From contig OX359247.1 in the NCBI GenBank assembly GCA_947179485.1, forward strand, positions 33,766,801 through 33,830,800: a stretch of DNA of 64,000 bases. Reading direction: 5' to 3'. Made by a program: the position numbers and the translations under genes. This DNA is from Allacma fusca (Eukaryota > Arthropoda > Collembola > Symphypleona > Sminthuridae). Below the pieces are notes generated by a model, which saw only the letters and a list, made by a program, of their open reading frames with translations, ran no database searches and was not told the origin of the DNA. Every line of letters starts with the position of its first letter. Position 1 is the stretch's first letter. This document shows, piece by piece, positions 1,850 through 63,348 of this stretch.

Positions 1850-2487
1850 CAGAGCTTCTGTTGGGGACAAAATTCCTGTCCCGTCCCCGTCCCGTCCCGT
1901 CCCGATATTTTTTCAAAACCTTTGTCCCCAGTCCCATCCCGACAATCGGGACCAGGCCTGGCCTCAAGTTCGGTTCAACTCATGATTCGCACTTGAACTT
2001 GACCCGAACTTGATTATATCACCATAATTAAGATCCGAACTTGAACTTGATTTTTTAAAAGTAGGTACGAACCGGAGTAATCAAGTTCACATAATCAAGT
2101 TAATTTCGGCGAACTTGACCATGAAGGGAACTTGACCATGAAGTTCAGAAAAACCTTGACCATGAACTTGACCATGAACTTGACCATGAACTTGAATTTC
2201 TAGTTATAGTGTTGTATGTATACTTATAATTAGAAAGGCTAACAAATTACATGAGATTTAATTTCCGTTTATTTTTTAAAATTGAATATCAAAATTGAGA
2301 AGTAATGATTGGTAAAACTTATAATAAGAGAATATAAAAATAACTAGATTTCCCGTAGAATTTTTTGAATGACGCACGGATTTAATCAAAATTGGTTTGA
2401 GATTTGAATTTCAATCATCCCTTCAAGCACAGACAAACACAAATGATGTCTTCTAACATTCTTTTAGGAGTTAGTAGGTCTATATAT

Positions 2488-2811
2488 TGTAGCGTTAGAT
2501 ACAGAATCCAAACCTTCTTAGTTTAAACAAAAGCAAACAATATTTCTATATTTCATTATTTTAGAATTTAACAATAATCCTAACATGAGTTCATTATTGA
2601 ATATGAATAAGCATACTGTGTTATGATTTATGAATGGAAGATGGGAGCTTAGAATAAAAAGGGCAGTCTAGTTTTGGTCATTCACCACGTTAGACAATTC
2701 TTACCTACTCTTTTGGGAATCTCACAAAGTGTTCTACCTTACCTACGTTTACTAAGTGCTTATCTATAATTATTACTACTGAGCTACGCTGCCCCAACAC
2801 AAAATCCTACA
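2488..2811 (+). repeat. 5' LTR
   Basis: Full 324-bp LTR with a 5-bp terminal inverted repeat TGTAG...CTACA, identical as far as I can compare to the copy at 9807-10130. A TGG at 2819-2821, seven bases past its end, could begin a primer-binding site, but I cannot match the following bases to a tRNA 3' end. Confidence 0.93.
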
Positions 2812-2967
2812 AGGCGCCTGGATCGTGAACGTTCCTTGCTCTTCTGTGGTAACTTCTTTATTGCTAAAGACATTTATTTTTCACCCTTTTTGTACACAGC
2901 CACATAACACATCCTCACTCTCACTCAAATACATAATTTTCATTTCTAAATTTAACCTCCATCAATT

Positions 2968-3490
2968 AAAACAGTTTGACCTGCGTTAATTTTCAAAATT
3001 TGACCAGCGTTAACTGTCTCAGTTTGACCTGCGTTAATTTTCCAAATTTGACCAGCGTTAACTGTATCCGTTTAACCAACATAAATATTTCATAAATCTG
3101 ACCAGAGTTGACTTACAGTCTGACCTGAGTTGATTTTCATGAATAAAAATTCACACTTGATCCGACCAGTGTTGACTTTACAGTCTGACCTGGGTTTAAT
3201 TAATGTATCGTAGTTCTGACCTGTGTTGACCATTGTGTCTGACCAGTTGTTGAACTACCACAATAATTATTTTCTGAAAAGTGTAAAATTCAGGGGAATC
3301 CCTGCCAAAATTTTCTTTTTTTCCCAAAAACTTTGATTTTTTTTTGAAAAAGTGTAAAAATTAGGGAAACCCCTGCCCAAAATTTCCTTCATTTTCTAAA
3401 ACTTCGATTTTTTTTGAAAAAGTGTAATAATAGGGGGAACCCCTGCCAAAATTTTTTCGGAATCTCAGAAACTCTGATTTCTTTTTATTA
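2968..3490 (+). repeat. Two tandem-repeat blocks in the retrotransposon leader
   Basis: From 2968 to about 3250 a degenerate unit built on TTTGACCTGCGTTAA / TTGACCAGCGTTAA recurs roughly every 30 bases. From about 3279 to 3490 a second unit of about 70 bases, marked by GTGTAAAA then GGGAAACCCCTGCC, recurs three times. Both lie between the 5' LTR and the first frame, where packaging and translation-control signals of LTR elements usually lie; the role here is unknown. Confidence 0.75.
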
Positions 3491-3610
3491 ATCATCAAAA
3501 CCGAAAAATATAAGTAAAAAGTGTCAACATTACATTATTATTTTCTCTTTCTATTAACGGTGGAAGTCGCCGCGAACCGATTAGCTCTCACAGCCAAGCC
3601 AACCAACCCT

Positions 3611-3940
3611 ATGGTATTAATTAACATTCTTGCCTACGTAACTCCAGACGATTATCATTATTCTGATTTCACCCTACTAAAACAATATACCCTACCTACT
3701 GATTCAACTTTGGAAATTAATATTCACATACCAATCACAAACGCTATCTATTACTCAATATTTGAAGACGACATTGTTACCATCAGATTACAAATAACTA
3801 CCTCCCAGGCCTACGAACAATTAGCGAACATCTCAATCATCTATCAACAACATACTCCTGAAGACTTTATTAATAACCCTATCCTACCGAATATTGATTT
3901 AACTGATCCTGACGGACAAGAGTGGATGCACAGATATTAA
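3611..3940 (+). CDS. Small upstream frame of the LTR element (ORF0), unknown function
   Basis: An ATG at 3611 opens a frame of 109 residues ending at TAA 3938-3940; the frame itself is open further upstream without an ATG. It resembles no family I recognise. It has no zinc knuckle and no clear transmembrane segment; it is rich in Ile, Thr, Asn and Tyr with an acidic tail. It stops two bases before the Gag ATG, so the two may be translationally coupled by termination-reinitiation. It could be an extra structural domain or a regulatory upstream frame. Confidence 0.5.
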   Translation: MVLINILAYVTPDDYHYSDFTLLKQYTLPTDSTLEINIHIPITNAIYYSIFEDDIVTIRLQITTSQAYEQLANISIIYQQHTPEDFINNPILPNIDLTDPDGQEWMHRY

Positions 3941-3942
3941 CC

Positions 3943-4944
3943 ATGACTTCTTTCTTACCCAATGAAATCTTCTCTAACATTCCCACCTACGATGGACATT
4001 CCTCCTGCACTATGTGGCTCAAATCATTTAACTCTAGATGTGCCCATTTTAAACTTACGGACAAACGGAAATTCGAAAACATGGATTCCATATTACAAGG
4101 ATCTGCTTTACATTGGTGGACCTTTTCTAATGACACATTCCTGGACAATCTAAACATAGCCAACTCCCAACCACGTTTCAAAGACTTTGAGACACAAATT
4201 CAACAGGCTTTTTCTGAAATAAACGATAAAGCTATAGCCACCGCGGAGAATATTGCTACAATATTCAACACCGAGACCGACATCGCAAGAGATTACATCT
4301 ACAAAAAGTTAAGTATCTTCAAACGTATGGATCCAATGATGACAGACTCTTGCAAACTTGACTTCCTTTACCAAGGATTACCACCTGACCTGTCATGGAA
4401 TATACAGCTAAAACTTGGAGCTGATGGTACTATTCCACAATTCCAGAAGCAATTAGAATTCTACACCACCAAACTCCAAGCTCATCACCTACTCACGAAG
4501 CAGCAAGTACCTCCACCACACATCACCAAACTTTATGAACTCCCAACTACAACAAGACACCTACAACCTACCCAAACCTCATCCGCTCCCGTTACCACAA
4601 TGTTACCACCAACGTGCTCTTTCTGCAATACAAACACTCACAAATTCCGTGACTGCCGTTCATTTAGACGATGGTTAAATGAAACGAACAACCTTAACCC
4701 TACCCCGAATAACCACCCTGAACAACCAAATGTCAACACCATACCTCAACAACAATTTCAACAAACTAACCAACAAGGATTAAAACGCCACAACAACATC
4801 TCATATAATTACCATTCAAAGAAACCCCTCCTCGAAGTTCCCTACAACAACCCATCACAATTCAATTATATCAATAGATTCTACAATCCAAACAACGAAC
4901 AACATCCTTCAAACCAAGATCAAAACTGGCGATCGGGAAACTAA
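3943..4944 (+). CDS. gag: Gag polyprotein of the Ty3-type element
   Basis: A 333-residue frame starting at the ATG that directly follows ORF0 (TAACCATG). The N-terminal two thirds look like a Ty3-type capsid (helix-rich, with a SALHWW stretch and a basic segment), and residues 225-238 form one CCHC zinc knuckle (C-x2-C-x4-H-x4-C), the nucleocapsid RNA-binding finger. The C-terminal quarter is low-complexity Asn/Gln/Pro. The frame is open throughout, and it ends four bases before a 9-bp stem-loop. Gag forms the particle that packages the element's RNA. Confidence 0.88.
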   Translation: MTSFLPNEIFSNIPTYDGHSSCTMWLKSFNSRCAHFKLTDKRKFENMDSILQGSALHWWTFSNDTFLDNLNIANSQPRFKDFETQIQQAFSEINDKAIATAENIATIFNTETDIARDYIYKKLSIFKRMDPMMTDSCKLDFLYQGLPPDLSWNIQLKLGADGTIPQFQKQLEFYTTKLQAHHLLTKQQVPPPHITKLYELPTTTRHLQPTQTSSAPVTTMLPPTCSFCNTNTHKFRDCRSFRRWLNETNNLNPTPNNHPEQPNVNTIPQQQFQQTNQQGLKRHNNISYNYHSKKPLLEVPYNNPSQFNYINRFYNPNNEQHPSNQDQNWRSGN

Positions 4945-4947
4945 ATA

Positions 4948-4978
4948 GCCTGATGAAAAACAAGGGAGATCATCAGGC
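4948..4978 (+). promoter_or_regulatory. Stem-loop between gag and pol
   Basis: A perfect 9-bp stem (GCCTGATGA at 4948-4956 with TCATCAGGC at 4970-4978) and a 13-base loop sit immediately after the gag stop (4942-4944). The pol frame is closed by TAG at 4946-4948 and open only from 4949. A simple frameshift inside gag therefore cannot reach pol, and this structure is a candidate for reinitiation or bypass control. Confidence 0.55.
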
Positions 4979-5155
4979 CACACAATAGTGGAAACCTCCC
5001 ACCGTACCACCAACACACAAAGTACTCAAACTCATACCATACCACTAAACAACGAACTACAAACTCAAAACACAATTTACACATCAAGCACACAAACATC
5101 AATACCCACAACCATCGAAACCAAAACACACGCCACACAAACCGATTCCAAATTA

Positions 5156-8100
5156 ATGGAAACTCCTGAATCAACAACCATCTCAGAAAACTGTTCATCA
5201 CCAACCTCAACTCTCAAAAACATTGATACTTCTGACGAAATAACAAATAACTTAATATATCTACCTGTCCAAGTCAATAATGCTACATTCAAAGCTTTAA
5301 TTGATTCTGGAGCTGCCCTATCAGCAATTAATGAATCAATTTGGAACTCACTACCCAACGAAATGAAACTCAAAACAGAAACTCTTCAAATACCACTTAA
5401 ATTATCTCTTGCCATTACAGCTAACAACAAACCACTCATACGGAAGAAAATAATTCTACCTATCAAACTACAAAACTACAACATCAACTGGCCATTTCAC
5501 ATCATACCAGACTGTAGCCACGATATAATCCTTGGAAAACACTTCTGTAAAATCCACAATATGGAATTCGACTGGTCAAATGATACTGCTTATATCAACC
5601 CAACACAACCTCAAAAGAAACCAATTAAATCTATCAAGAAACTCTCAAAAAGAATAACCACAATTAACTCAGTACAAGTTTCAGAATCAACGTTAATTCC
5701 TGCCTACACAACGAATCAAATTCCCATTAAATCCAATGTCCATTCCGGAACCTTCTTATTTGAACCTTCAGCCCAATTTCAAACAAAGAACTTAATTTTA
5801 ACACCTGCAGCCATAATCAACGTTGAAAAACAAGACAGCTTCATTTATATTACTAACCCTACAAATTCCGTTATCACAATTCCATCAAAATCAACCATTG
5901 GAACACTTCAATCAATTTCAACCAACAACATCCTCCACACCATTGATGATACGTCCAGAGAAACAGAATTAAATCACATTCAAGCTAAACTTAATTGTAC
6001 AGAAATTCCTATAAACCAGGATATAGCCGAACTTAACTTCTCACCACACCTAACAACAGATCAAACTCTTACCTTAAAACTACTTCTTTCAAAATACAGA
6101 CAAGTATTTGCATTTAACACTGAAGAACTCGGTAGTACAAATTTAGTTAAACATAAAATCGAAACCTCTGACGAAATCCCTATCCGTTGCAGACCCTACC
6201 GCGTATCACAATTAGAACGTGATGAAATCAATAAGCAGATCAACGAAATGCTGAAAACACACATTATTGAACCCACAGACTCTCCATATGCTGCTCCAGT
6301 TGTACTTTGCAAAAAATCGTCTCCAGATGGATCCAAAACATCGTACAGATTCTGTTGTGACTTCAGATTATTAAATAAGAAAACAAAGAAAACCAGTTAT
6401 CCTTTACCAAGAATCGATGACGCATTAGATAAATTACATGGCTTCAAATATTGTAGTACCCTAGACCTTTTCTCAGCTTTTCACCAAATCCTAATGGATC
6501 CGGAAACTAAACACAAATCTGCATTCACAACCCCTGACGGAAATTACGTTTGGAACCGCATGCCATTTGGATTAGTCGACAGTCCATATTCCTGGCAACG
6601 ATTAATTGATAGAGTACTCGGTAACCTTAAATGGAGCATCTGCCTAGTTTTTCTAGACGACATCCTGATTTTCGCAAAATCCTTTGAAGAACACAATCGA
6701 CGTTTAGAATTAGTTCTACAAGCACTTCTACAAGCAAACCTAACTTTAAAACCCAGCAAATGTCAATTCGGGATGCAGGAAGTGAAATACCTAGGACACA
6801 TCATTTCCAAGAATGGTATTCTCCCTAACCCCGAAAAAATCAAGGCCGTCCAAGATTTTCCTACACCACAGAAAGTTAAAGATGTGCGTTCATTTGTATC
6901 ACTATGCTCGTACTACAGAAAATTTATCCCCAACTTCGCCAACATAACACATCGTTTGAATCAATTACTTCAGAAAAATACACCATTCTTGTGGGATGAA
7001 AAATGTTCTACTTCATTTAACCTGATGAAAGAAAAATTAACTTCAGCCCCTGTCCTCGCTCATTATAATCCAAACGCAAACATCGAAATACACACTGATG
7101 GAAGTTCCTTATACGGTATAGGATGCATAATTATGCAAACTGAAAATGACGAACGACATCCTATAGCTTATTTATCAAGAAGTCTAAACAAGCACGAAAA
7201 GGCCTGGGCCATAACACACATAGAATGTCTAGCAGTAATCTACGGTGTCGAAAAAGCAAGACCCTATATTTTTGGAAAACATTTCAAAGTTGTCACAGAC
7301 CATTGCTCATTATGCCACCTAATGAAAACTAAAGAATTAAAATCAGACAGACTGTCAAGATGGGCCTTAAGATTACAGGAATACGATTTTGACATTGTTT
7401 ATAATTCTGGAAAGAAACATGCCCATGTAGATGCCCTTTCAAGATACCCAACGTCAGAACCAACTCCCGCAGAAGAAGACTTCCCAGAATCATACTTACT
7501 ATCAATCAACGTACCATCAACAAACCCTGAAACACGTCGTCTCATAATGCACCAAAACCAAGACCCACAACTCCACCCCATTATAAACCATCTAATCAAA
7601 ACTAAATTAAATTCTTTCAACAACTACTACCTCATCAATAATATTCTCTGCAAGTCCAGACCAAACTATAGCAAAAATATATTTAAAATATGCATTCCAA
7701 AATCCTTACAACAAGAAATCATAAATTCTGTTCACAACAACCCCACTGGTGGCCACTTAGGAATTTTCAAGACACTGCACACCCTTCAGAATAGATATTA
7801 TTGGAAAAATATGAACCAGGACATCACAAAATTTATAAATTGTTGTGATATTTGCCAAAAATACAACCGACGGAATTTTGTTGAATCCGGACCAATGTGC
7901 CCTCTAGAAACACCAGAAACACCCTTCCACACACTAGGCATTGATTTTCAAGGACCCTACCCTGAATCTGAAAAAGGAAACAAATTCGCTCTAATAATCA
8001 ATGATCATCTTACACGTTATATAGAAGCAGCTATAGTACCTTCTCAAGACTCTTATAACGCCATAAAATCAATAACCAACTTAATACTACAACGTCACGG

Positions 8101-8788
8101 AATTCCATCGAAAATAATTGTAGACCCAGGAACAGCATTCACATCAAACGAATTTCAATCATTTTGCAACTACTTTAAAATAGAACTCATCACCACTCCA
8201 CCTAATTGCCACGGAACTAATGGTCTAGCAGAGAAAAACAACGATACTCTTAAAAGAATCATTGCAAAATTTATACAAAATGATCACAGTGAATGGGAAT
8301 TATATTTACCATGGGCAGTTTATGCACATAATGTTACCACACATAGAATCACAAGATTTTCTCCATACTACTTAGTTTACGGACGAGAACCAATACTACC
8401 CTGCGATAAAATAATTCCACCTCTGAAACAATACTTAGAAGATTTTAAACCACCTCTCAACGCAAAACGTGTAGCAATTTCTAGAAACACTGCAAAACAA
8501 GTAACTGAACAGTTTCGACGAAAAGAAAAGCAAAAATTCGACACTCTGCACCGCACAATCCCTTTTCACATCAATGATTTAGTTCTTGTTGCCGACTTTA
8601 CCAGAAAACCTGGTTTTGTGCAAAAATTCATGCCCCATTGGAAAGGACCATATGAAATCATTGATCAATTAAACCCTCGCAGTTTTAAATTAATTGACAA
8701 AAGAATCGGAAAACCCAACAAAATAATCTCCATGAATACACAACATCTAAAACATTACCACCCTCCACTGACCAGTGATGATATCTAA
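5156..8788 (+). CDS. pol: Pol polyprotein: protease, reverse transcriptase, RNase H, integrase
   Basis: The frame is open from 4949 to 8788; the first ATG is at 5156 (about 1,210 residues), still upstream of all catalytic domains. In order: an aspartic protease with a DSGA motif (about 5303); a reverse transcriptase with the FLDD active-site box (about 6649-6660); RNase H with HTDGSS (about 7090); and an integrase with an HHCC zinc-binding region (about 7733-7860) and the DDE residues in GIDFQGP, VDPGTAF and a Glu in GLAEKNN. No stop or frameshift is seen. Domain order and sequence fit Ty3-type elements. Translation probably depends on reinitiation or bypass because gag and pol do not overlap. 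Confidence 0.92.
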   Translation: METPESTTISENCSSPTSTLKNIDTSDEITNNLIYLPVQVNNATFKALIDSGAALSAINESIWNSLPNEMKLKTETLQIPLKLSLAITANNKPLIRKKIILPIKLQNYNINWPFHIIPDCSHDIILGKHFCKIHNMEFDWSNDTAYINPTQPQKKPIKSIKKLSKRITTINSVQVSESTLIPAYTTNQIPIKSNVHSGTFLFEPSAQFQTKNLILTPAAIINVEKQDSFIYITNPTNSVITIPSKSTIGTLQSISTNNILHTIDDTSRETELNHIQAKLNCTEIPINQDIAELNFSPHLTTDQTLTLKLLLSKYRQVFAFNTEELGSTNLVKHKIETSDEIPIRCRPYRVSQLERDEINKQINEMLKTHIIEPTDSPYAAPVVLCKKSSPDGSKTSYRFCCDFRLLNKKTKKTSYPLPRIDDALDKLHGFKYCSTLDLFSAFHQILMDPETKHKSAFTTPDGNYVWNRMPFGLVDSPYSWQRLIDRVLGNLKWSICLVFLDDILIFAKSFEEHNRRLELVLQALLQANLTLKPSKCQFGMQEVKYLGHIISKNGILPNPEKIKAVQDFPTPQKVKDVRSFVSLCSYYRKFIPNFANITHRLNQLLQKNTPFLWDEKCSTSFNLMKEKLTSAPVLAHYNPNANIEIHTDGSSLYGIGCIIMQTENDERHPIAYLSRSLNKHEKAWAITHIECLAVIYGVEKARPYIFGKHFKVVTDHCSLCHLMKTKELKSDRLSRWALRLQEYDFDIVYNSGKKHAHVDALSRYPTSEPTPAEEDFPESYLLSINVPSTNPETRRLIMHQNQDPQLHPIINHLIKTKLNSFNNYYLINNILCKSRPNYSKNIFKICIPKSLQQEIINSVHNNPTGGHLGIFKTLHTLQNRYYWKNMNQDITKFINCCDICQKYNRRNFVESGPMCPLETPETPFHTLGIDFQGPYPESEKGNKFALIINDHLTRYIEAAIVPSQDSYNAIKSITNLILQRHGIPSKIIVDPGTAFTSNEFQSFCNYFKIELITTPPNCHGTNGLAEKNNDTLKRIIAKFIQNDHSEWELYLPWAVYAHNVTTHRITRFSPYYLVYGREPILPCDKIIPPLKQYLEDFKPPLNAKRVAISRNTAKQVTEQFRRKEKQKFDTLHRTIPFHINDLVLVADFTRKPGFVQKFMPHWKGPYEIIDQLNPRSFKLIDKRIGKPNKIISMNTQHLKHYHPPLTSDDI

Positions 8789-8837
8789 CCATACAAAAAT
8801 CTCAACCATCAATTTTTTTTAACACTTACAGATCAAA

Positions 8838-9731
8838 ATGGATATAATGGAAATCGAGCCCTCAATGGAGGATTTGCTGATTATAGAAACTACACCTGGA
8901 GAAGACTTTCCAAAGTTTATCTTTCCTGCTCCTACAAAATCCCCCGAACCGAATTTTCCATCTTTTATTAAAGACATGAATGCTGCCCTCGAACTTCCAT
9001 CTAAACACGAAGAACTACCACTTACTCCTGGTAAAAACTTACACCACAGAACCAAACCTTTGACTCTCTCAACTTCACTGACGAATGACGATATGGACAT
9101 TGACATCATCACTTTATCTCCGAAATCACCAACGACCTCAACACAATTACCCTCATCTTTAAAATGGTTTCTTGGAGGATACGAACCATTACCAAATTCG
9201 AATCCACCATACATCACTCATATGGGTGACTCAAAAGGAATCTGGTATGGTAATAAGTGGCTCCCTCACCCAAGAGTCATTGTACAAAAACTTCCCAAGA
9301 ATTTCCCAAAAGGAACAATCAGAGCACCGAACACCTTGAAGACACCAAACCAACCAACAACCTCTACAACCAACAACTTACTCTCATTGCCTCATCATAA
9401 CTCAAACCAACCAACCACCTCTGCAACCAACCACCTACTCACATTGCCTCATCAAAGCTCGAAACAATACACTAACAATTGGGCTCGGAAGGCAGCTTAC
9501 TACAATACTTATTGGAAAGAACATTCCGGACAAACCAACCAAGCAGTCGTACGACAATTATTTTCCACAAACTCCATCGAAAATCCAACTAAATCCAACA
9601 TCAAACACACATCTTCACTACCAACCACTTCAATCACACCAAAACCAATCAGACGTAACCGCCCAGGAAAAGCCCGACGAGATAAGATGATGCGACAAAT
9701 GTTGAGACTATCCAACGGAGAACAGAAGTAG
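8838..9731 (+). CDS. Env-position extra frame of the LTR element, not Env-like
   Basis: A 297-residue frame from a true ATG, 50 bases after pol and just downstream of a pyrimidine tract and CAG (about 8809-8831) that looks like a splice acceptor, as used for spliced env messages in errantiviruses. The product has no signal peptide, no membrane segment and no cysteine. Its N-terminus is acidic (rich in Glu, Asp and Pro), the middle has a near-duplicated Asn-Gln-Pro-Thr-Thr-Ser stretch of about 20 residues, and the C-terminus is strongly basic (RRNRPGKARRDK). A nuclear or nucleic-acid-binding accessory protein is more likely than an envelope. I do not recognise the family. Confidence 0.7.
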   Translation: MDIMEIEPSMEDLLIIETTPGEDFPKFIFPAPTKSPEPNFPSFIKDMNAALELPSKHEELPLTPGKNLHHRTKPLTLSTSLTNDDMDIDIITLSPKSPTTSTQLPSSLKWFLGGYEPLPNSNPPYITHMGDSKGIWYGNKWLPHPRVIVQKLPKNFPKGTIRAPNTLKTPNQPTTSTTNNLLSLPHHNSNQPTTSATNHLLTLPHQSSKQYTNNWARKAAYYNTYWKEHSGQTNQAVVRQLFSTNSIENPTKSNIKHTSSLPTTSITPKPIRRNRPGKARRDKMMRQMLRLSNGEQK

Positions 9732-9796
9732 AAACACCATCAGAATACCTATCATCCACTATAACCTAACTCAGAGTGTCAAGTCCCCACCCCTTA

Positions 9797-9806
9797 GACG
9801 GAGAGA
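9797..9806 (+). promoter_or_regulatory. Polypurine tract
   Basis: A purine-rich run (AGACGGAGAGA, about 9796-9806) directly abuts the 3' LTR, the expected primer site for plus-strand DNA synthesis. It has one pyrimidine. Confidence 0.6.
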
Positions 9807-10127
9807 TGTAGCGTTAGATACAGAATCCAAACCTTCTTAGTTTAAACAAAAGCAAACAATATTTCTATATTTCATTATTTTAGAATTTAACAATAATCCT
9901 AACATGAGTTCATTATTGAATATGAATAAGCATACTGTGTTATGATTTATGAATGGAAGATGGGAGCTTAGAATAAAAAGGGCAGTCTAGTTTTGGTCAT
10001 TCACCACGTTAGACAATTCTTACCTACTCTTTTGGGAATCTCACAAAGTGTTCTACCTTACCTACGTTTACTAAGTGCTTATCTATAATTATTACTACTG
10101 AGCTACGCTGCCCCAACACAAAATCCT

Positions 10128-10130
<3 letters not shown>
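9807..10130 (+). repeat. 3' LTR
   Basis: 324 bp, identical by eye to the 5' LTR at 2488-2811. LTRs are identical at insertion, so lack of divergence means very recent transposition. Confidence 0.93.

Positions 10131-10176
<46 letters not shown>
10131..10176. repeat. (AT)23 microsatellite
   Basis: Uninterrupted AT dinucleotides directly following the 3' LTR. The element probably inserted into an AT stretch, which then expanded or was already long. Confidence 0.95.
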
Positions 10177-10179
<3 letters not shown>

Positions 10180-11171
10180 TACACTTACGAGCAGTGTTTG
10201 CAGCTGTATTTGTTTGTAGAATCGCAAAATGTGAAATGCTTGTGGACCTTAGGTCATTTTTTCCGGCTACTTGATGCAGTTGGACTTCCAGGATCAGCAT
10301 CTTCTTCGCACTATTGAGACTTTTCAGATGTGCTCATTTTCCAGTTGTTTTTAAAATAATATGATTATTCAAAAATTTAAATCAAGTTAAAATTAAAAAG
10401 ATGTTGTGAAGAAGAAAATACAACAGGATTTAGCTTGTTGCTCGTTGAAAACACGGAAATACTGGTCTAGCATTTGCACACAAAAACGCTGTGATTTTAA
10501 TTAGCGTTTACAGCTTCAGCAAGGACATCTGCATAAGAACGATTATCTATAGCGTATTATATGAGTGTAAGAACTTGACCATGAAAAGTCAAGTTCATGT
10601 TCATGGTTTTGGGGTTATGTGATCCGAACTTGATCATGGTATTGATGTCAAGTCTATAATGAAGACCTGACCATGAACTTGATTCGAGCCTTAAAATCAA
10701 GTTCAAATTTCATGTTGACCCGAACTTGAGATTTCAGTGTCAAGTTCAAATTAACTTGTAACACGAACTTGACTTGAACTTGACCTTGACCCGAACTTGT
10801 CAAGTTTTACTTGAACTTGAATGCCAGGCCTGATCGGGACACGGTGACAAAAACAGTGTCCCCGTCCCGTCCCCAAAATGTTTAAAAAACGTTGTCCCCG
10901 GTCCCCTCCCGATAGTCGGGACATGGGGACAAAAAAGTTGTCCCCGTCCCGTCCCCAAAAATTAAAAAAAAAAGTTGTCCCCGGTCCCGTCGCGAAAGTC
11001 GGGACATGGGGACAAAAACCTTGTCCCCGTCCCGTCCCCAATATTTTTAAAAAACATTGTCCCCGATCACGAAAATCGGGGCATGTGAACAAAATTCCTG
11101 CCCCGGTTACTAAAAACAGTAGTCGACATTCTCATACCGAAAATCGGAACATAAGGAAAAATTCGTACAAG

Positions 11172-11420
11172 AAACATTTGTACCAAAACCATTAAAAAAA
11201 ACATTTGTACCAAAACCATTAAAAAAACATTTGTACCAAAACCATTAAAAAAAACATTTGTACCAAAACCATTAAAAAAAACATTTGTACCAAAACCATT
11301 AAAAAAAACATTTGTACCAAAACCATTAAAAAAAACATTTGTACCAAAACCATTAAAAAAACATTTGTACCAAAACCATTAAAAAAAACATTTGTACCAA
11401 AACCATTAAAAAAACATTTA
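11172..11420. repeat. 27-bp minisatellite
   Basis: About nine copies of a 26-28 bp unit made of ACATTTGTACC, AAAACCATT and an A-run, inside the right half of the outer element. The long frame across it on either strand is a product of the repetition and is not a gene. Confidence 0.92.
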
Positions 11421-12899
11421 TAGAATCGTATTTCCAAGATTTCTCCTTAAGGCAGCTTAAATTACGGTTATATTTCAACAGTAGGAAAGTAGGAGTAGTA
11501 GTAACTATAACTGTTCTATTTCAGTCACCAAAATTATTCTGGCACTCAAGTTTATGTGTATGATTACTTACTTCAATTATGATTGTAAATATATAACTTG
11601 TCTTTATTCGCTCTAATTCCAAAATCTAATAATCCTAATCATAAAACCATGATGAAGTACCAGTCATTTTTTGAGCAATACGCTTCATTTTCTACTGAAA
11701 TAGAACTAACAGAATAGTTTAATCACGAGCATTAAAAGCTGAAACGTTATCCTTGTTCTGCTTTGCTTGCTCGTCCCGTCCCGTTATACACACAGCCAAA
11801 AAGCATATCCCGTTCTGAATACAATGGGGACAATTGTTTTGTCCCCGTCCCACCCCAAAAATAATGGGGAAATTTTTTTATGTCCCCGTCCCGTCCCGAA
11901 TATTATGGGGAATATTTTTTTTGTCCCCGTCCCGAATATAGTAGGGACAGTTTTTTTTGTCCCCGTCCCGTCCCGAATATGACATGGGGACAATTATTTT
12001 GTCCCCGGGGACGTCCCGTCCCGGTCCGTCCAGTGTCCCGACGTCCCGTCCCCGTCCCCGGCAGAAGCTCTGAGGATAGCGATCACTCAAGAGCAGCGTG
12101 CCCAGATTATTCGATTCTCAAATCAGGACTTAGGAGTTTTCAAACAAATAAAAATCAGATATGTCTTAGTGCAGTTTAACTATTTATATTTGGCTTTCGT
12201 ATGCCCAAGAAAGCTTGTTCTAATTTCAAAATTTTGAATGAGATCCTCCGTGACAGAAAATATAGTGTCGCCCCGATTCTTTCGGATCTTTATAAAAGTC
12301 TGGCAAAATATCTTAAAGCAAGTGGAAAACTCTTTCGTTTCTTCTTTCCTTGCATCTGATATTAAAGAAAACTAATGAGAAATTATTTCATTTATCAAAG
12401 CTTCTGGAAATCAATCTGGAAAAACTGGTCTCTAGATGTTACACCAAAATAACTTGTGTACACCATACTTTCCAACTCCACACTGTAAATAACTATTTTT
12501 AGGCATTCCAAAATATAATAAAGAGAGTATTTACCGGTCTCCACAACCCGAAACAAAATATTCTAACTAAACATTTAATATGAGCGCATGTACTTGTTAG
12601 ACATCATAAACAGTTATTGGTAATTGGAAGTCAACTCTACAGAACTGTTCTGTACAACTGCAATGTCGAACATTAAAAAATTAAACCGTTCAAAATTAAA
12701 ATATAAGCACCATTTTACTTAAGTGTATACAGGTTCTATTAGTATTACGACGGACTTTATGAAACGTAATGACAAATCTTAGCCTTTTTACCCCAAAATG
12801 CTGCAAGTAGATACTTTGAAATCAGGACTAAATTCAAGCTCATCAGGTGACCCAATGTCAAATTAGGACAGTCCTGCTCAGTCCTGGGCACCCTGGTCA

Positions 12900-14129: not shown

Positions 14130-14131
14130 TA

Positions 14132-14640
14132 TTGCATGCAAACTTCTGCTTATCACCGTCACTTTCAGAAAAGTGTCATTTTTGACTTGCTTTAAATTAC
14201 GTATTTTTTTCAAGAGACACGCCCGACCATTCGAAATTAACTTTAAATTTAACCAAATGTTTTTATTACCTATGAAATCTGTTTATATTTATAGTTCAAC
14301 ATTGTCTAAGAGCCGGATATATTTACCAGTCATTTATTGTTTGTGAAGTTGAAATAACTACATACTAATAACCTTATGGTAGATTTCACACGACAAAAGA
14401 TTAACAAGTCCCAGAAATTAACAAGATAACGTACATGTACTGTAGTGGACAATCAATGTATGTATGTATCTAACCTAACCTTGATGCTATTTTTGATGAT
14501 TGAAGTGCATGGACTGCACAAATACCATGGACAAAGACTACAACCCATGTCTATGGAAGCAGAATGTTATGCTACAAGTCGTTACATAATTTCTAGTCAC
14601 TTGACATTTAGTCAGTTGACAGAAATGTAGTAAGCCTCAA
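14132..14640. repeat. P450 upstream module, second part (copy 1)
   Basis: Homologous to 34393-34890, 44085-44280 and 60385-60545 (shared TTGACTTGCTTTAAAT, GAGACACGCCC and TTTAACCAAATG-like blocks). It leads directly into P450 copy 1 and so probably contains the ancestral promoter. No TATA box is assigned. Confidence 0.55.
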
Positions 14641-14664
14641 ATTAACTCCAGTTTTTCGAGCACA

Positions 14665-34890: not shown

Positions 34891-34897
34891 GAGCACA

Positions 34898-49660: not shown

Positions 49661-49669
49661 TCACAATTC

Positions 49670-51180: not shown

Positions 51181-52100
51181 CATGTAAATTGTCGACACTG
51201 CACTGGACGCAAGTACAGTACCACTCTTCTGTGCTTGCTCAAGTGTCACTGCCACTGCAGTCACAAAATTAATCTACAAAACTATAAACGATCCTGCCAG
51301 GATTCGAACCTGGAATCTTCTGATCCGTAGTCAGACGCGTTATCCGTTGCGCCACAGGACCGAGGAAGTGGTAAAGTTACAATTTTTTCACGTCCAAATC
51401 ATCACTAATAACCCAAATAAAAATTATTCGTATATACTTCGAATTTTTAGAATCAATGTTGTTTACTTTAGTTCCAACCTAACCAATATTATATCAGTAG
51501 GTAGTGTAGATACGATGTGCATACAAATGTATAAACTTAAATTATCTATTCACATATGTATGTAGCTTTGATGTATGCATAAGTATAGTAAACTTATTCA
51601 TACATTTGCAGCGGAGTCAGCTCATCTTATGGTCAATCATATCAACAAGTTTTTTGTAAGTAAAGAAATAGTCTTCCAACTGTCTACACCTCTGTATGTA
51701 CATACAGGCAAACCTGAATATCTTGTTTCGGAAAACTTTCAGCCAAGACTAATAAATGAATACTTGCACAAGTAGACTCCTCTAAATTTGTGCATGATTT
51801 TGTCTTCATACTTCAGTCGTACACTAACGTGCATACTTTACCGGTTGCCATGAAAAACAAATACATACATTTATACCTGCAGCGTCTGCATTTAAATGAG
51901 TTTAAAATGCCCCCGAATTTATATACTTCATGGCCATATGACTTTAATGTGAGATGCGAAGTAAATTGTTTTTGAAAAAAAATAATGCTATTATAATTTT
52001 GAAAAAGTTGCAAACGTGAATTTGCATTCTCCAGAGGGAGAATGACCATTTGCACTGTTTCTCAATATAACTAGCCCTTTGTGAAATCAATCCTATATTC
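51180..52100. repeat. tRNA-containing segment paralogous to 40030-40830
   Basis: Collinear blocks with the first tRNA locus on both sides of the tRNA, diverged in the non-coding parts. Homology appears to resume after 55740 (TTTGCTGGCTTT also at about 40848), which suggests that 52137-55586 is an insertion. Confidence 0.55.
51289..51361 (-). tRNA. tRNA-Arg(ACG), second copy
   Basis: Identical over 73 bases to 40131-40203, same strand. Flanks are also related (AACCCAAATAAAA.TATTCG, ATCAATGTTGTTTACTTT, then CTCCAGTTG-poor non-coding sequence), so this is a segmental duplicate in which only the tRNA has stayed identical. AAAA at about 51264 gives the pol III terminator on the minus strand. Confidence 0.97.
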
Positions 52101-52772
52101 TAGTGGCAATTACATTAAAGCACCCATTATATTATACAGGGTTGGTAGCCGTTTTTGAAAACCGTTTTTGCAAAACGTTTTTAACGAAAAAAGGAACAAC
52201 GGCTTGTGAAACGGTAAATCAATCGTGGGCAAACGAAATGCTAACCCTATAACCTTGTCTACGAATTGGCATGCTCTGTTGACTACCTACTTGCCTGTAA
52301 TAGATAATAATGTATTTTTTTCCGACTTGACACTCTACAAATAGGCAAAATTTTTGCCTACCTACTCTCCTAAATAGGATTAATGTTCTCCAACTTTTAC
52401 AGATTACAAATAAGTAAAACCATTGGCTAAATTTTCATAAATGAGCATTTTTTACCTTGGGTTACAGTCTAGAATTTGAAACGCTTTGGTTTAACTTGTT
52501 GCATCCTTGTAAAATATTGGTGGTAATTTGCTATTTTAGCTACCTTTTGCTAGTTTTAACTTGGTAGTATGTACATATTCCCTACCTATTTGCCTACCTA
52601 CGTGAAATTAGCATGCCTACCTTTTGCCTATATTCAAGTGGACACAAGTACCTAACCTATTTGCCTACCCTACATCGGGTAAAACGTTTTCAGTCTTGAA
52701 ACTTTGAATTTGGTACAGTACATGCAGCGAACCTTTTTATAGGCCTCTACAGTATTATTAGGTCTCTAAAAG

Positions 52773-53674
52773 TAAGGTTCTCAACGGATCGGATATATCC
52801 GAACGGATACGGATACGGATACGGATAGGATAAAACTGAAGATTATCCGATCCGATATTTATCCGAACGGATCGGTTTTGTCATTCCCATCCGAGAAAAA
52901 TCCCGGATAGGATCGGATACTGTCACATAAAATATCCGAACGGATCGGATGGCAACTTTTTGTTTTACGGATAATCCGCCGGATATCCGAGGATATCCGC
53001 GGATAAACGAATTTTTGAAAACATTGCGACCGCTCTAATATTTACTATCTGCTGCAATTACCGACAGGACATTAGTTCGACAATTTCTTAAAACGTTTGT
53101 ACTTTTTCCCTTTTGTTTTGTACTTAAAGTATTTATGTTATGGCCCGAAATTCAGTCATATTTTGAATTTCAGCTGCTTATTCTAGTTACCTGTTCTTAT
53201 AGGCTTCAACTTGTTAAAGGTTTCCAGTAAGTTAAATTATTTTTCGAGAATATATGATATGCGAAACAGAAAATTCTCAATTCTTAAATTATTTGTAGTA
53301 AATGTTTTGTCACGCAAACAAATGTATATGCACGGTTTCTTCTGTCATTACAATACGTTATAAGCTAACAGTATATTGTATTTAAAACTAAAAGCCAAAC
53401 TCGAGGATCAATTTCACCTTCTACAGTTGATTCGTGTATCCGCAGATAGGATCGGATATCCGCGGATAGGATCGGATAGATCCTTTTTCTTATCCGACCG
53501 CTTCGGATAGGATAAATACGTTATCCGAAAATTTACGGATAAGCTTCGGATAAGATAATTTTTAATCCGATGGAAGCGGATCGGATCGGATACGCTTCAG
53601 TTTTATCGGTAAAAATTCGGATCGGATAGGATACGGATAGGATAATGGAATTATCCTATCGGTTGAGAACCTTA
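52773..53674. mobile_element. hAT-like non-autonomous element (GGATCGGATA motif)
   Basis: 902 bp with 13-bp TIRs TAAGGTTCTCAAC...GTTGAGAACCTTA and a perfect 8-bp duplication TCTAAAAG (52765-52772, 53675-53682). Units ATCCGAACGGATA/GGATCGGATATCC crowd both ends. The paralogous position near 39930-39945 (GTAAAAGGAATAGTTC) is empty. The TIR resembles the GGTTCTCAACC ends of many hAT elements. Confidence 0.92.
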
Positions 53675-54228: not shown

Positions 54229-55501
54229 CGTGTCCGGCCAACTGCCACCCCCACAACTGCCACACCCACAACTGCCACACTCACAACTGCCCCAATAATT
54301 TTTTGCCACCGATCCAAAATTGCAAGCGGTAACAACTGCCACAAAACCAACTGCCACCCGGAGAACTGCCACAAGGCAATGCAAACAACAGCCTATGCTA
54401 AGTGATGTAGCAGAAACCAACACTCATGCAATGGCACTTACCATAGGATTTCGCCATGACACTTAGCATAGGATTTCGCCATGACACTTAGCATAGGATT
54501 TCGCCATGACACTTAGCATAGGATTTCGCCATGACACTTAGCATAGGATTTCGCCATGACACTTAGCATAGGATTTCGCCATGGCACTTAGCATAGGATT
54601 TCGCCATGACACTTAGCATAGGATTTCGCCATGACACTTAGCATAGGATTTCGCCATGACACTTAGCATAGGATTTCGCCATGACACTTAGCATAGGATT
54701 TCGCCATGGCACTTAGCATAGGATTTCGCCATGACACTTAGCATAGGATTTCGCCATGACACTTAGCATAGGATTTCGCCATGACACTTAGCATAGGATT
54801 TCGCCATGACACTTAGCATAGGATTTCGCCATGACACTTAGCATAGGATTTCGCCATGACACTTAGCATAGGATTTCGCCATGACACTTAGCATAGGATT
54901 TGTAATGACACTTAGCATAGAATTTGTAATGACACTTAGCATATGATTTGTAATGACACTTAGCATTAATTTTGCAATGACACTTAGCATTAGTTTTGCA
55001 ATGACACTTAGCATTAGTTTTGCAATGACACTTAGCATTAGTTTTGCAATGACACTTAGCATTACTTTTGCAATGACACTTAGCATTAGTTTTGCAATGA
55101 CACTTAGCATAGGTTTTTGCAATGACACTTAGCATTAGTTTTGCAATGACACTTAGCATTAGTTTTGCAATGACACTTAGCATTAGTTTTGCAATGACAC
55201 TTAGCATAGGTTTTTGCAATGACACTTAGCACAGGTTTTTGCAATGACACTTAGCATGGTTATTTTCAACGACCCTTTTCGATTTCAAATTTTTAAAAAT
55301 GTATTTACATGTAAATTAAGTTTGCACAAATGTGGTATAAGCGTAAGTGCTACAAACGTGATGTGGCAGTTGTGCGTGTGGCAATGGGTCTAAGTGGCAG
55401 TTGGGATTGTGACAGGTTTTGGTGGCAGTTGTGAATGTGGCAGTTCTCCGGGTGGCAGTTGTGATTGTGGCAGTTGTGGGGGTGGCAGTTGGCCTAGAAC
55501 C
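54229..55501. mobile_element. Foldback-like TIR element (CAACTGCCAC motif) with internal minisatellite
   Basis: The outer 140 bases on each side (54229-54372, 55363-55501) are inverted arrays of CAACTGCCAC units; GGCCAACTGCCAC lies near both ends, and CAAAAACT flanks both (54221-54228, 55502-55509), an 8-bp duplication. Between the arms lies a 25-bp minisatellite. No coding capacity. Confidence 0.75.
54431..55258. repeat. 25-bp minisatellite, about 33 copies in two blocks
   Basis: The unit ATGACACTTAGCATAGGATT plus TCGCC repeats about 19 times (54431-54900), nearly without variation; it then passes through GTA-type variants into a block ending AGTTTTGCA (54960-55258). The core ATGACACTTAGCAT is constant. 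Homogeneity of the left block suggests recent expansion. Frames across it are by-products. Confidence 0.95.
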
Positions 55502-56173: not shown

Positions 56174-57090
56174 CAGAGCTATGCAAAATACTTGGTCTTC
56201 GATGCCAAAATACAAAATAAAATACCGGAATTAAAATATGGAAAATACAAAATACAAAGTAAAATACCTCAGGTTACATTGCTAAAATACAAATAAAAAT
56301 ACAATACTTGGTAGAAAATTTAAAATACTCAAATACAAAATACTGTATTTTAAATACAATACTTTTCTTAAAATACCCACCTGATCCTCACTATTTTCGA
56401 TTTCTAGAACAAACTTTTTAAAACAGTCACTTCAAAGACTGCATTTAAGACATCTGTAGTACCAAATTGTTCAACGGTTGCCCAATAGGACAGTCCATTA
56501 TAATTATATTTTAAGTAGTTTTGACTGTTAATGAAGTAAGAAATTAATCTGAAATTTTTATTTATTAGTAAATAAATGTATTTTCGGAATAATTATTATA
56601 AAAAGGGGCTAGTAACTGAAAATTAAATCGAGTAGGTATTCGTCTTCGACGTATCTTAAATATAGTTGTTGAAGAGGCAAAATGGTCTGTGATGTAAAAA
56701 CCATTCGCACGTAGACCATTTCGCCTCTTCAACGACGATATATATAGTATCGAGAATCTGAACATGTTTGATGTAGCCAAGGGATTCATTCCGACGTATG
56801 TTATTCCAATGTGTAAAATTGAATTTTCACAGACATTGTACATCGTATAAGCTACATACAGTGTCAAAATCAGAAATCATACCAGTGAAAAGTATTTTGA
56901 GCAAAATACTTTATTTGAATTACATTTCATATTTCATTGAGAGTAAGTAAATACCAAATACTTTTGTACTTCCTGGCTCTCAAAATACTTGCTTACTGCT
57001 TACCAACTTTAAAATACTAAATACTAAATACTTTGTGGTCTGAAAATACGTATTTTAAAATACTGTATTTGAAAATACTGCATAGCTCTG
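56174..57090. mobile_element. hAT-like non-autonomous element (AAAATAC motif)
   Basis: 917 bp with TIRs CAGAGCTATGCAAAATAC...AAAATACTGCATAGCTCTG-type ends and a perfect 8-bp duplication TCTATAGT (56166-56173, 57091-57098). AAAATAC/GTATTTTA units fill both ends. The opposite arm of the Tc1 host has the single empty site (ACTAAAGATA near 59085). A 21-bp hairpin sits in its middle. Confidence 0.94.
56668..56733. repeat. 21-bp hairpin inside the AAAATAC element
   Basis: Arms 56668-56688 and 56713-56733 pair with one mismatch around a 24-base loop, and weaker pairing continues outwards for about 30 bases. The dimensions are like a miRNA precursor. No expression evidence. Confidence 0.65.
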
Positions 57091-58829: not shown

Positions 58830-59929
58830 CTTGACCTAAATGTGTCAAAATGCATCAAGGGATTCTAAAAGACACTACAATGTGTTTGTGATTTATTTTG
58901 TTAAAATAAAATTACGTATCTTCAGTTATCCGGCTCAGATTGTACCGTAGTCAGTCGTGTTCCAATACTAATGCACAGGAATAATTGGATGCTTTTTCGT
59001 TTTTTTATATAATTTTTTTTTTCAAAATGTTTTTGCAGATCTATAATCAGCATAAAAACTGAATAAAAGCAAGAAAAGGCACTAAAGATAAGTAGTACAC
59101 TCCAAGATTATTTAGACCCTGTGTCTCAGAGTTTACCTTGTTCCAACATCATTGCACCCCAGTGTATATACTACACGGAATGTAGGTAAAATAAGCTGTA
59201 CCTGAAACATATTTTTCAATTCCAAAAATTACGGGCCCGGGTTCACAATTTCGAAATTTGGTTGTGTTAAGGCTGTTAAAAAACTGCAATATGTTTTTAT
59301 AACTGTATAAAAACCGCAATAATTAAGATGTCATTTAAAAGGTATTTATTTTCTCGACCAAGTAAAGCTATTCTAGTCTAAATATTAATGAGAATAAAAA
59401 TTTGATGAAGAATGGCATGATCAAGTAGTACACTTAGAAAGGCATTGACTTTTAATCAATCAACTCATGGCTAAAAAAATTTTTGTTTTGATTAAAGTTT
59501 TGTCTGATTTAGTTTTGAATAGCTGTAAAAATAACGTTATTCCAGATATGAAGACAACTTAAGCAACGACCCCCATGTTTTTCTACAGTTAGTGTTATAA
59601 TGATCTAAAGTTTATTGTTAGTTAAATCCCACCCCTATAAAACATATACATTCATATCCATAGACTAAAATTTTAAAAACGATCCCATTGAAATCATATA
59701 TGTGCGAATCCGTGAGACATCTACCGGTTGATATGAAAGACAATGTAATGCAAACAACAAGGCCGAATCACGGTTTCTGAACCTGAACATATTGCATCTA
59801 TTTGCATGTGTTTATACCAGACAATCGTATCTTTGCCATTGATTAATTTGTAAACGGCATCTGCCGGAACCAACCGGTAGTTTAGAATCAATTGTGTGAT
59901 GTGAAGTAATTATTACAGTATTATACTAT

Positions 59930-60545
59930 TCTCACAAGTTTGTTCTTACTACGGATATTTTCTACCCAACGTAAAATATTTTGGAGCACTTCATTTACAT
60001 ACATAACGAGTTACATGTTACATCAGTTTTCTCCCTAGAAGAGCACATCGATAAATACTAGAGTATAATTTTCGACTTTTGGAGCCCTCTCATAAAACGA
60101 ATGAATTTGCATGTGTAGTAATTACCAATGTAATATTAACATATGCAACGCAGCTGATAAGATTTACTCCTCAGCTGAACCAGCTGCAATGTGTTTACAT
60201 CATCTGCCCAGCAAACGTTTCCCCGTGCATCTTACCAAGGTCATTTTTCTTGTCCAGCTCGTATTATGTTATTGTATGAATTGTAGAGATCATTATATAG
60301 TACAAACATAGACGCTTGAATTTAATGCACTTTGGATACTTACTGACCAGAATCGGCAGTCCATATTAAAGTACACTGTGCCAATTATGAAACCAAGTTT
60401 GCTCTGCGTATGCTGGTCAGCTCCATTTCAAATGCTTTGTCGACTTACTTGATTTATGTAATTTTTTTCTGGAGTCACGCCCTTCTTTTCAAAACTGACT
60501 AATTTTAACACAACCAGGTTTTTCTCACATGAGAGAATTGTCGGT
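59930..60545. repeat. Orphan P450 upstream module
   Basis: Collinear with 43570-44280 and 44330-45230 and with the sequence upstream of copy 1, but no P450 exon follows before the window ends. It preserves the empty site for the 44640-45178 insertion. It represents a lost, displaced or never-complete fourth copy. Confidence 0.6.
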
Positions 60546-61487: not shown

Positions 61488-61574
61488 GCGGATCAAACCA
61501 CTAGACTTCGTCGGTGTTGCACTTGGGAAATGGGGGTTATCCACCACCTGCCGTCCTGTGGTGGCTTGATCCGC
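61488..61574. repeat. Short hairpin
   Basis: GCGGATCAAACCAC (61488-61501) pairs with GTGGCTTGATCCGC (61561-61574), one mismatch in 14, around a 59-base loop. Confidence 0.6.
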
Positions 61575-61978
61575 TATCGGATAACATCTCCTATTGGTTT
61601 GCGATTGTGATGTGATTACAAATTACCTTAAAGGCTAACTACCCGGCTTATTTGTAGTATGTAATATGAATGTATTTACAACTGGGGTGTATTTCTGAAT
61701 CATGTGCTATTCGACTGAACCAACAAGCTATGAAGCCTTTCAAAGCCAGCAATAGCTGGCTGTGCAGTGCTAGTATGATATATTTTGAGCTAGTTTTCAT
61801 GTTGTAGCAATTGTACTTGAATTGCGCGGAAAAATTCTGGTCTGAAAATCGTGCACAATTTTGAAGTTCTCCAACATAAGCGGTGCAAACACTAACGAGT
61901 GGGTGAGCTTAGGCAGAATGTGAGATCGTAATATGAAACCCGAGGTTTGAGTTTCAGCGATTTCAAGCGAGCCAGGTA

Positions 61979-62125
61979 CAGTATACTCTCGCTATAAGAG
62001 GCCTCCCTATAAGAGCATGCTCTGTATAAGAGCACTCCCAGGTCCTCCCCATGGGATTGTAGTACTGTAATTGTTCCCTATAAGAGCACCGTTTATAAGA
62101 GCATTTTCGATGTAAGAGCTGGCAT
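61979..62125. repeat. TATAAGAGCA repeat array with pogo-like end
   Basis: At least six CTATAAGAG/GTATAAGAG units follow TACAGTATACTCTCGCTATA. The CAGTATACTCTCGCTATAA form resembles pogo/Tigger termini, where a repeated CGCTATAA-like unit marks the end. The other end was not found. Confidence 0.45.
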
Positions 62126-62344
62126 TTTATTTCCTCATCCTCACGTTAAAAAAAATGTTTTATCAGAGCATGAGCAGACATAGACAATGGTGAAACGTTT
62201 GAACAAAACACCAATAGAGCGCCAATGTTTTACAGTATAGTGGAATTGGTGACGATAGAGTACTATACACAACCTCTAATATGTAGAGCAAAAGAGGTTA
62301 TAATGCCGATCTATAAGCTTGACATCTGCCTCGTTCGTACAACC

Positions 62345-62767
62345 TAATGTTAGGGAAATCCCTCTTCTTACACTCCCAATCCCTATTCAATCTCGATACC
62401 TCATTTCACACTCCGTCTCAATCACTCTATGTACCATAGAGAAAACTCCCAATCCCTCTGATGCACACACACACTCCTGATAGTCAATCCCACTCAATCT
62501 CTCGCGCTGCGCGCGCATGTATGAATACCGCGTAAATTTAAAAAATTGCCTCTAATTAATTAAAATAAATTAAATTAACCAAATTAATTAAATTAATGTG
62601 GTTTAATTTCTGATCATCAATCTTACTCAGTTTTCTACATATTTGCGTCAATCCCACTCCGTCTCAATCCCTCTGTACATTCAAATAGTCCATCCCAATC
62701 CCAATCCGTCCGGACTGATGTTTTTGTCAGTCCGTCCTGTGAGCTGCTCGAAATTTCCCTAACATTA
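62345..62767. mobile_element. hAT-like non-autonomous element (TCCCAATCC motif)
   Basis: 423 bp with TIRs TAATGTTAGGGAAAT...ATTTCCCTAACATTA and a perfect 8-bp duplication GTACAACC (62337-62344, 62768-62775). CTCCCAATCCCT/ACTCCGTCTCAATC units fill both ends, with an AT-rich centre. Confidence 0.9.
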
Positions 62768-62897
62768 GTACAACCTCCATACTCCTTATATTTACACCGA
62801 AGAGCAAAAATTACTTGATGTGAAACAAGTAATTTGTTTCACTTTTTAGGCGGCGTCCATTTATTACGTAACGCCAAATTTCGAAAATCCGTATCCG

Positions 62898-63348
62898 CAG
62901 GGGTCGGATTTATGTGGGAAGACGGGAAGAATCTTCCCAGGGAAAAAAAAATTTCAGCAGGGAAATTTTCAAACTTGATTGATTGGAAACAGGGATTTTC
63001 AAATCTGTTGACCTTTTTTGGTATTTTCGAAATTGTTGAGGTGTTTTATTGAAAACAATTTTTGTCAGCAGGGATTTCTGAAATTGCTGAGGTGTTGTAC
63101 TGAAAATGATTTTTGTCAATAGGGATTTTCAAAATTGTTGAGGTGATCTACGAAAAGCAATATTTGTCAGCAGGGATTTTCAAATTTGTTGACCTATTTT
63201 TCAGCAGGGATTTTTGAATTTGTTGGGGTGTATTACGAAAATTATTTTGTCAACAGGGAATTTTAAACTAGCTTCGAACAGGGACATCATGACCAGCAGG
63301 GAAAATGAAAAAAATCTTTCAGGGAGATTTACAAAAATCCGACCCCTG
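62898..63348. mobile_element. TIR element with GCAGGGATTTTCAAA repeats
   Basis: 451 bp with ends CAGGGGTCGGATTT and AAATCCGACCCCTG. Flanks CCGTATCC(G) and CCGTACCC are near-duplicates displaced by one base. Inside, a unit of about 60 bases (TTTTGTCAGCAGGGATTT...GTTGAGGTG) is repeated about five times. Same architecture as the hAT-like set. Confidence 0.7.

Follow-up and report, generated by a model that had tools for sequence, protein, structure and literature searches.

Why should mobile elements that resemble one another at their tips each carry, directly inside those tips, a dense array of a different short motif? This question is raised by a stretch of 64,000 nucleotides (here called the window) from the collembolan Allacma fusca (GenBank assembly GCA_947179485.1, contig OX359247.1, positions 33,766,801 to 33,830,800 of the forward strand). 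A first-pass annotation had marked ten intervals in it as hAT-like elements bounded by terminal inverted repeats (TIRs), each filled with its own private motif, along with three unbounded arrays. Our analysis indicates that nine of the ten (E1 to E6 and E8 to E10) are probably non-autonomous hAT elements and that one further array (P1) is probably a truncated one, with the arrays predicted to be subterminal repeats for the BED finger of a transposase of the element's own family. The elements and arrays are listed below by their positions in the window (TSD, target site duplication; LTR, long terminal repeat; ORF, open reading frame).

E1, 1850 to 12072: hAT-like, split by E2; tips CAGAGCTTCTG; GTCCC(C/G) array; TSD ATGGATAG / A-GGATAG, fitting only with a 1-nt gap
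E2, 1953 to 10832: hAT-like, inside E1; tips CAGGCCTGGC; GAACTTGA array; TSD ATCGGGAC, perfect
E3, 39238 to 39834: hAT-like; tips CAGTGATGGGCA; (A)TAGGCGA array; TSD 7/8
E4, 40880 to 42132: hAT-like; tips CAGTGCTGCG; ACTTGA(C/A) array; TSD GCTTTAAA, perfect
E5, 44640 to 45178: hAT-like; tips TAGGGGTGAGTA; AACGAGAC array, orientation mixed; TSD 7/8
E6, 52773 to 53674: hAT-like; tips TAAGGTTCTCAAC; CGGATAGG array; TSD TCTAAAAG, perfect
E7, 54229 to 55501: Muta-like (Mutator/Foldback); inverted arms of ~140 bp with a 15-bp GTGGCAGTT unit; TSD CAAAAACT, perfect
E8, 56174 to 57090: hAT-like; tips CAGAGCTATGCA; AAAATAC array; TSD TCTATAGT, perfect
E9, 62345 to 62767: hAT-like; tips TAATGTTAGGGAAAT; CCCAATCC array; TSD GTACAACC, perfect
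E10, 62898 to 63348: hAT-like; tips CAGGGGTCGGATTT; AGCAGGGA array overlapping 51-bp tandem units; TSD poor, fitting only with a 1-nt offset
P1, 17735 to 18553: left-truncated hAT-like array of GGGAACAG; right tip TAGTGCTGTCC (reverse complement)
P2, 26180 to 27003: TCAGTTCA array; no clean ends seen
P3, 27288 to 27568: GGTCGG-type array, orientation mixed; no clean ends seen
Ty3/gypsy LTR retrotransposon, 2488 to 10131, plus strand: splits E2; two identical 325-bp LTRs; pol ORF at 4988 to 8788

The core of E1 also contains a 27-bp near-perfect tandem array of ~9 copies (11172 to 11419). A short imperfect hairpin seen by eye in the core of E8 (56666 to 56735) may be an additional nested element.

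Ends, target site duplications and empty sites

When the sequence was read out at each coordinate, inverted tips were found to bound all ten predicted intervals, with the exception of the outermost bases of E7, as the first-pass annotation had it. YARNG is the tip consensus of hAT elements, and tips of this form on short TIRs (~10 to 15 bp) were present in all nine of E1 to E6 and E8 to E10 but not in E7. Within these nine, the 8-bp TSD was perfect in five (E2, E4, E6, E8, and E9) and matched at seven of eight positions in E3 and E5. The annotated 8-bp duplications were thus largely recovered; however, with E7 included the perfect ones number six of ten rather than the five reported, and those of E1 and E10 align only with the gap or offset given above.

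The number of TIR/TSD pairs (12-bp TIR and 8-bp TSD, with at most one mismatch in each) was compared with that in 40 order-3 Markov sequences. The window contained nine such pairs, of which six began with YAR and three were perfect in both TIR and TSD. The controls had a mean of 2.3 pairs (maximum, 7), a mean of 0.25 YAR pairs (maximum, 2), and no perfect pairs. The six YAR pairs were E2, E3, E5, E6, E8, and E9; the remaining three pairs were not elements. A scan for YAR tips no more than 3 kb apart, which is blind to E1, E2, E7, and E10, returned 15 pairs, and the seven that had an array (six known elements and one pair overlapping E8) added no further bounded element.

Paralogous sequences in the same window provided empty sites for four elements. 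The empty site was precise for E8 (within the repeat copy spanning 59017 to 59166) and for E6 (within 39840 to 40050, near 39.9 kb), good for E5 (within 60110 to 60330, near 60.2 kb), and approximate only for E3 (within 52560 to 52730, near 52.65 kb). Two tRNA-Arg (ACG) genes, at 40130 to 40204 and 51288 to 51362, lie in duplicated sequence adjoining the stretches with the E3 and E6 empty sites.

Arrays in the window do not occur mostly without TIRs, since 10 of the 13 are bounded by them. The description of the other three as unbounded holds for P2 and P3 but not entirely for P1, in which a hAT-like right tip was read by eye and no left tip was seen.

Motif arrays, their balance and their strand polarity

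The top 6-mer of both arms scored 28.5 to 160 in all ten bounded elements, the lowest score being that of E9, and the highest score among 200 random arm pairs, drawn so as to avoid tandem-rich stretches, was 19.5. With 8-mers at one mismatch, 12 of the 13 arrays (E1 to E10 and P1 to P3) scored above the maximum of 100 controls (15.6), and P2 (14.3) was exceeded by 2 of the 100. The 6-mers were chosen by enrichment, with variants allowed for E1 (in one count only), E3, and E9. The first choice of 8-mers ignored orientation, and the 8-mers used for the flank, matrix, and cross-table analyses were set by hand and partly differ from that first choice.

In a cross-table of motifs against arms, every motif was mostly confined to its own element, except in E2 and E4. 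The E2 motif had 27 copies in E2 and 22 in E4, and the E4 motif had 19 copies in E2 and 27 in E4. E2 and E4 have different TIRs and share no match of 60 bp or longer; a common motif under different TIRs indicates that the motifs are not strictly private. The AT-rich E8 motif was also found in one to four copies in 8 of 13 other arm sets. Outside the arms, clusters (at least four copies per 300 bp) were sought for the motifs of the bounded elements and were found only for the E3 motif, near 38.8 to 39.2 kb and 52.3 to 52.7 kb; the motif common to E2 and E4 formed none outside these two elements. Thus, the annotated picture of one motif per element, different each time, stands insofar as the arrays exceed controls and are largely specific, whereas strict privacy is contradicted by E2 and E4 and by the E3-motif clusters.

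These clusters consist of the TAGGC-type E3 motif in host DNA to the left of E3 (38842 to 39229) and in the E3-free paralogue (52342 to 52662), and the E3 duplication (GCCTATCC) itself includes part of the motif. Either the site was chosen by E3 or an older array was present there.

The arrays are closely matched between the left and right arms. An array was taken to end at a gap of more than 110 bp, and E1 was omitted because E2 cuts short its left arm. The inward reach (left/right, in bp) was 243/260 in E2, 166/171 in E3, 251/262 in E4, 100/127 in E5, 233/238 in E6, 143/138 in E7, 203/199 in E8, 156/150 in E9, and 177/178 in E10. The corresponding motif copies numbered 13/14, 6/5, 19/19 (6-mer ACTTGA), 6/7, 16/13, 6/7, 14/13, 5/5, and 4/6. 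Over these nine elements the left-right correlation was 0.98 for extent and 0.97 for copies. In the seven elements that are not length-limited (E7 included), it was 0.98 for extent (permutation P = 0.0004) and 0.96 for copies (P = 0.007). Without E7 the values were r = 0.98 and P = 0.003 for extent and P = 0.017 for copies, and when E2 was also removed, P was 0.008 and 0.033, respectively.

Inverted TIRs would lead one to expect inverted arrays. Instead, motif copies lay mostly on one absolute strand through both arms in E1, E2, E3, E4, E6, E8, E9, and E10, and also in P1 and P2 (by the 8-mer method alone). The exceptions were E5, which is mixed and leans inverted, P3, which is a tie, and E7, which is inverted. 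Eight of the nine hAT-like elements were therefore same-strand (P = 0.039) when E5 was counted against the pattern and E7 was left out as a member of another superfamily. With P1 and P2 added, the count was 10/11 (P = 0.012), and with E7 also counted against it, 10/12 (P = 0.039); P3, as a tie, was omitted throughout. When the first 140 bp of the arms were aligned without reference to the motif, direct orientation beat inverted in six of the eight elements covered (E2, E3, E4, E8, E9, and, weakly, E10); E6 was about even, and E5 aligned better inverted.

The outermost pair of copies often had the opposite arrangement. By 6-mers, five hAT-like elements had a copy no more than 20 bp from each tip, and in four of these (E1 to E4; not E8) the outermost pair was inverted. 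By matrix, it was inverted in E2, in E6, and, if a site inside the TIR is ignored, in E3, but not in E5 or E8; in E1 and E4 the matrix scan calls no copy that close to the left tip. As a whole, the evidence for polarity is modest.

Proposed transposase binding and competing explanations

Recognition by a transposase would account for this architecture in the following way. The transposase would be encoded elsewhere, and its BED finger would bind the motif packed in the outer 100 to 260 bp of each arm. Many weak sites per end would raise the affinity locally and cause a multimeric transposase to load, after which the TIR tip would be cut. Different families would have different motifs because their transposases read different motifs. 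BED-type DNA-binding regions of hAT origin are reported to have diverse specificities, and the motifs of all four hATs measured matched their own subterminal regions (PMC8097297); the lock-and-key relation of motif and transposase proposed in the first-pass annotation would fit that diversity. The cores (P1 and P2 included) yielded 31 stop-free pieces of 60 amino acids or longer; 11 of these were run against Pfam and no family was matched, so that the elements look non-autonomous.

With arrays that run along the same strand, the left and right ends would be unlike despite their inverted TIRs, and in Hermes such a difference accompanies an end asymmetry that is required for activity. Hermes with two left ends is reported to have little activity and Hermes with two right ends none; the first repeats of both ends align, left repeats 2 to 7 being antisense and right repeats 1 to 5 sense (PMC10368747). 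That map appears to imply outer copies mostly on one absolute strand with the first pair inverted, the same arrangement as here. We tentatively suggest, as a possibility that falls short of being probable, a polarity code of hAT ends: the motif would keep to a single absolute strand across the two arms, the pair nearest the tips often being inverted, and the arrays would reach equally far in from both ends. Such an arrangement would give an element with symmetric TIRs a left and a right end, so that the ends synapse in parallel and productively, and it would have been kept while the motifs diverged. The rule is put forward as a hypothesis because the sample is small and comes from one genome. 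A general polarity rule for hAT arrays was not found stated in those parts of the hAT literature that were surveyed.

Several observations weigh against these interpretations. If E2 and E4, with their common motif, are counted once, the polarity counts become 7/8 (P = 0.07) or 9/11 (P = 0.065), and the mixed array of E5 leans the other way. Right-end-like repeats (three changed) placed on one of two Hermes left ends did not rescue activity, and mutation of inner left-end sites in Hermes is described as causing no dramatic drop in transposition (PMC10368747), so that not every inner copy need be a binding site. The repeats of Kat1 reportedly differ in polarity between its ends, and Kat1 may be a counterexample. 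No transposase piece was recognized in the 11 of 31 core pieces that were run, and the hAT label is thus taken from the ends alone. Each family has one copy within the window, and both conservation of the arrays within a family and the rapid diversification proposed in the first-pass annotation are therefore conjectural.

The arrays might alternatively be passive satellites, in which slippage or repair after excision expanded a short unit carried by a TIR element. Tandem structure is indeed present in the 25-bp minisatellite core of E7, in the 51-bp units of E10, and in units of ~36 to 41 bp in E1, and the flanks of the motif copies share some sequence within E1 and within E10. A single array split by filler would also yield same-strand copies, and tandem repeats riding on a Xenopus miniature inverted-repeat transposable element were reportedly described by Hikosaka and Kawahara in 2004. 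However, motif spacings were irregular everywhere except in E7, and most arrays lacked head-to-tail units of constant length, which are present in E7 and to some extent in E1 and E10. The sequence flanking aligned motif copies contained 0.01 to 0.36 bits per column in most arrays, which indicates that the spacers are little repeated; the exceptions were E7 (0.67 to 0.71), E1 (0.48 on one side), and E10 (0.39 to 0.43). In this test, which covered E1 to E10 and P1, the motif columns are conserved by construction, so that only the flanks are informative; overlapping copies were kept, and three arrays have only 8 or 9 copies. Tandem Repeats Finder listed no array within the arms that hold the motif in E3, E5, or E9. 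Passive expansion also would not readily account for arm extents and copy numbers that match from left to right or for the inverted outermost pair of several elements. It thus seems unlikely that the arrays arose in this manner. Plain satellites were rejected on the basis of the little-repeated spacers of most arrays, and the annotated notion of TIR-bounded mobile satellites is left mostly unsupported outside E7 and, in part, E1 and E10.

Still less probable for the set as a whole is a reading of the arrays not as hAT ends but as long TIRs of the Mutator-like or Foldback type, although it likely holds for E7. The two arms of E7 match each other in inverted orientation (74% identity over 139 bp). 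They are composed of 15-bp units, with 8 or 9 copies per arm by matrix, and thus form an inverted TIR of more than 100 bp made of tandem repeats. CAAAAACT on both flanks falls within the 8 to 9 bp of a Mutator-type TSD. E7 has no hAT tips, and its outermost tips do not match each other; its core is the 25-bp minisatellite (~33 copies, 54431 to 55257), the variants of which shift along the array. Muta1 is reported to have a 145-bp TIR with nine 12-bp repeats, spacers of 3 to 4 bp, and an 8- to 9-bp TSD (PMC5225508). E7 resembles the Mutator-like Muta elements of Aedes aegypti in its long TIRs of subterminal tandem repeats (9 to 15 bp in Muta) and in its TSD; unlike in those elements as described (PMC5225508), no transposase was seen in E7 and its tip motif was not recognized. 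Thus, E7 is likely a Muta-type Mutator/Foldback element and not a hAT, and the hAT-like label given to all ten elements is retained for the nine with the appropriate TSDs, tips, and subterminal repeats. Those nine have YARNG tips and short TIRs, and their arms beyond the TIR align as described above, mostly in direct orientation. Extended inverted TIRs as a general account of the arrays were rejected, as they fit E7 only, with E5 leaning in that direction.

Finally, the motifs could be recognized not by transposase but by chromatin or repressor proteins of the host, for example BED factors domesticated from hATs. DNA-binding proteins of such an origin, with a diversity of motifs, are known to exist (PMC8097297). 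The motifs, however, cluster almost solely in arms bounded by hAT-like tips, the E3 motif excepted, and we regard host binding in place of transposase binding as very improbable.

Neighboring sequences and comparison with known systems

A PIF/Harbinger-like element at 30905 to 34312 (tips TACCCAACACGGACAGCA, TTA duplication) has an additional ORF on the other strand and DDE_Tnp_4 pieces at 32041 to 32373 and 32310 to 32645, the latter below the Pfam cutoff. No subterminal array of the kind described here was found in this element, which belongs to another superfamily. A DDE_3 fragment at 28471 to 28965 is perhaps the remnant of a mariner-type transposase. Cytochrome P450 exons are present in three paralogous regions (14132 to 17541, 34390 to 37771, and 45695 to 48838), stretches of which are 69 to 85% identical. 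A 48-bp tandem array with palindromic CCGACATGTCGG lies at 20951 to 21279, and no TIRs were seen there by eye. A search with the pol sequence of the Ty3/gypsy retrotransposon gave 1492 matches; among the named ones of the 120 listed, a pseudoscorpion was the most frequent, and a tick, two spider mites, a butterfly, a frog, and a bacterial bin were also present, which points to an animal host, perhaps an arthropod. In a pattern scan of viral contigs, judged an unlikely source of the partner elements, the tips of E4 had no matches and those of E3 had six; as no second inverted tip was present in any of the six stretches (one of just 2413 bp), these matches are taken as chance.

If the arrangement seen here is general, non-autonomous elements would reveal the end geometry of their transposase along with its binding motif, and genome sequence alone could serve to derive the DNA-binding specificity of many hAT transposases. 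The polarity pattern would then bear on a question that published Hermes structures leave unsettled, namely why this element requires two unlike ends. Balance and polarity go beyond the first-pass annotation and are the parts most worth pursuing.

This kind of design is known, and it is unusually rich here, balanced between the ends, and usually same-strand. Comparable arrays occur in hAT elements from fish and cnidarians in Repbase. Subterminal repeats have been called a defining feature of hAT elements and also haphazardly present (PMC4890040), and AAACGG repeats in the terminal 200 bp of Ac bind Ac transposase (PMC3260210); PMC3143072, PMC4763223, and PMC2872659 were also drawn on. The array extents in the window (100 to 262 bp) are of the size of the ends reported to be required by Tag1 (~100 bp), Tol2 (200/150 bp), Ac (at least 200 bp), and Hermes (~220 bp). 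Balanced repeat numbers per end are also on record for Tgf2 (17/18; PMC4890040) and Hermes (17/14; PMC10368747).

Hermes, a housefly hAT with AAG(T/C) repeats, is similar to the elements described here in its 8-bp TSD, its short TIR, and its many short repeats at both ends, as reported (PMC10368747). In contrast to what that report describes, the motifs here are ~6 to 8 bp long, occupy the outer 100 to 260 bp, and differ by family, and no transposase gene was seen. The hAT-derived CGG-binding proteins represent the protein side of the same proposed lock and key, array density and polarity not being surveyed in the sections of that work consulted (PMC8097297). Tgf2/Tol2 and Ac/Ds likewise have subterminal repeats at both ends; their repeats are described as haphazard, whereas the copies in the Allacma elements lie mostly on one strand and extend equally far into both arms.

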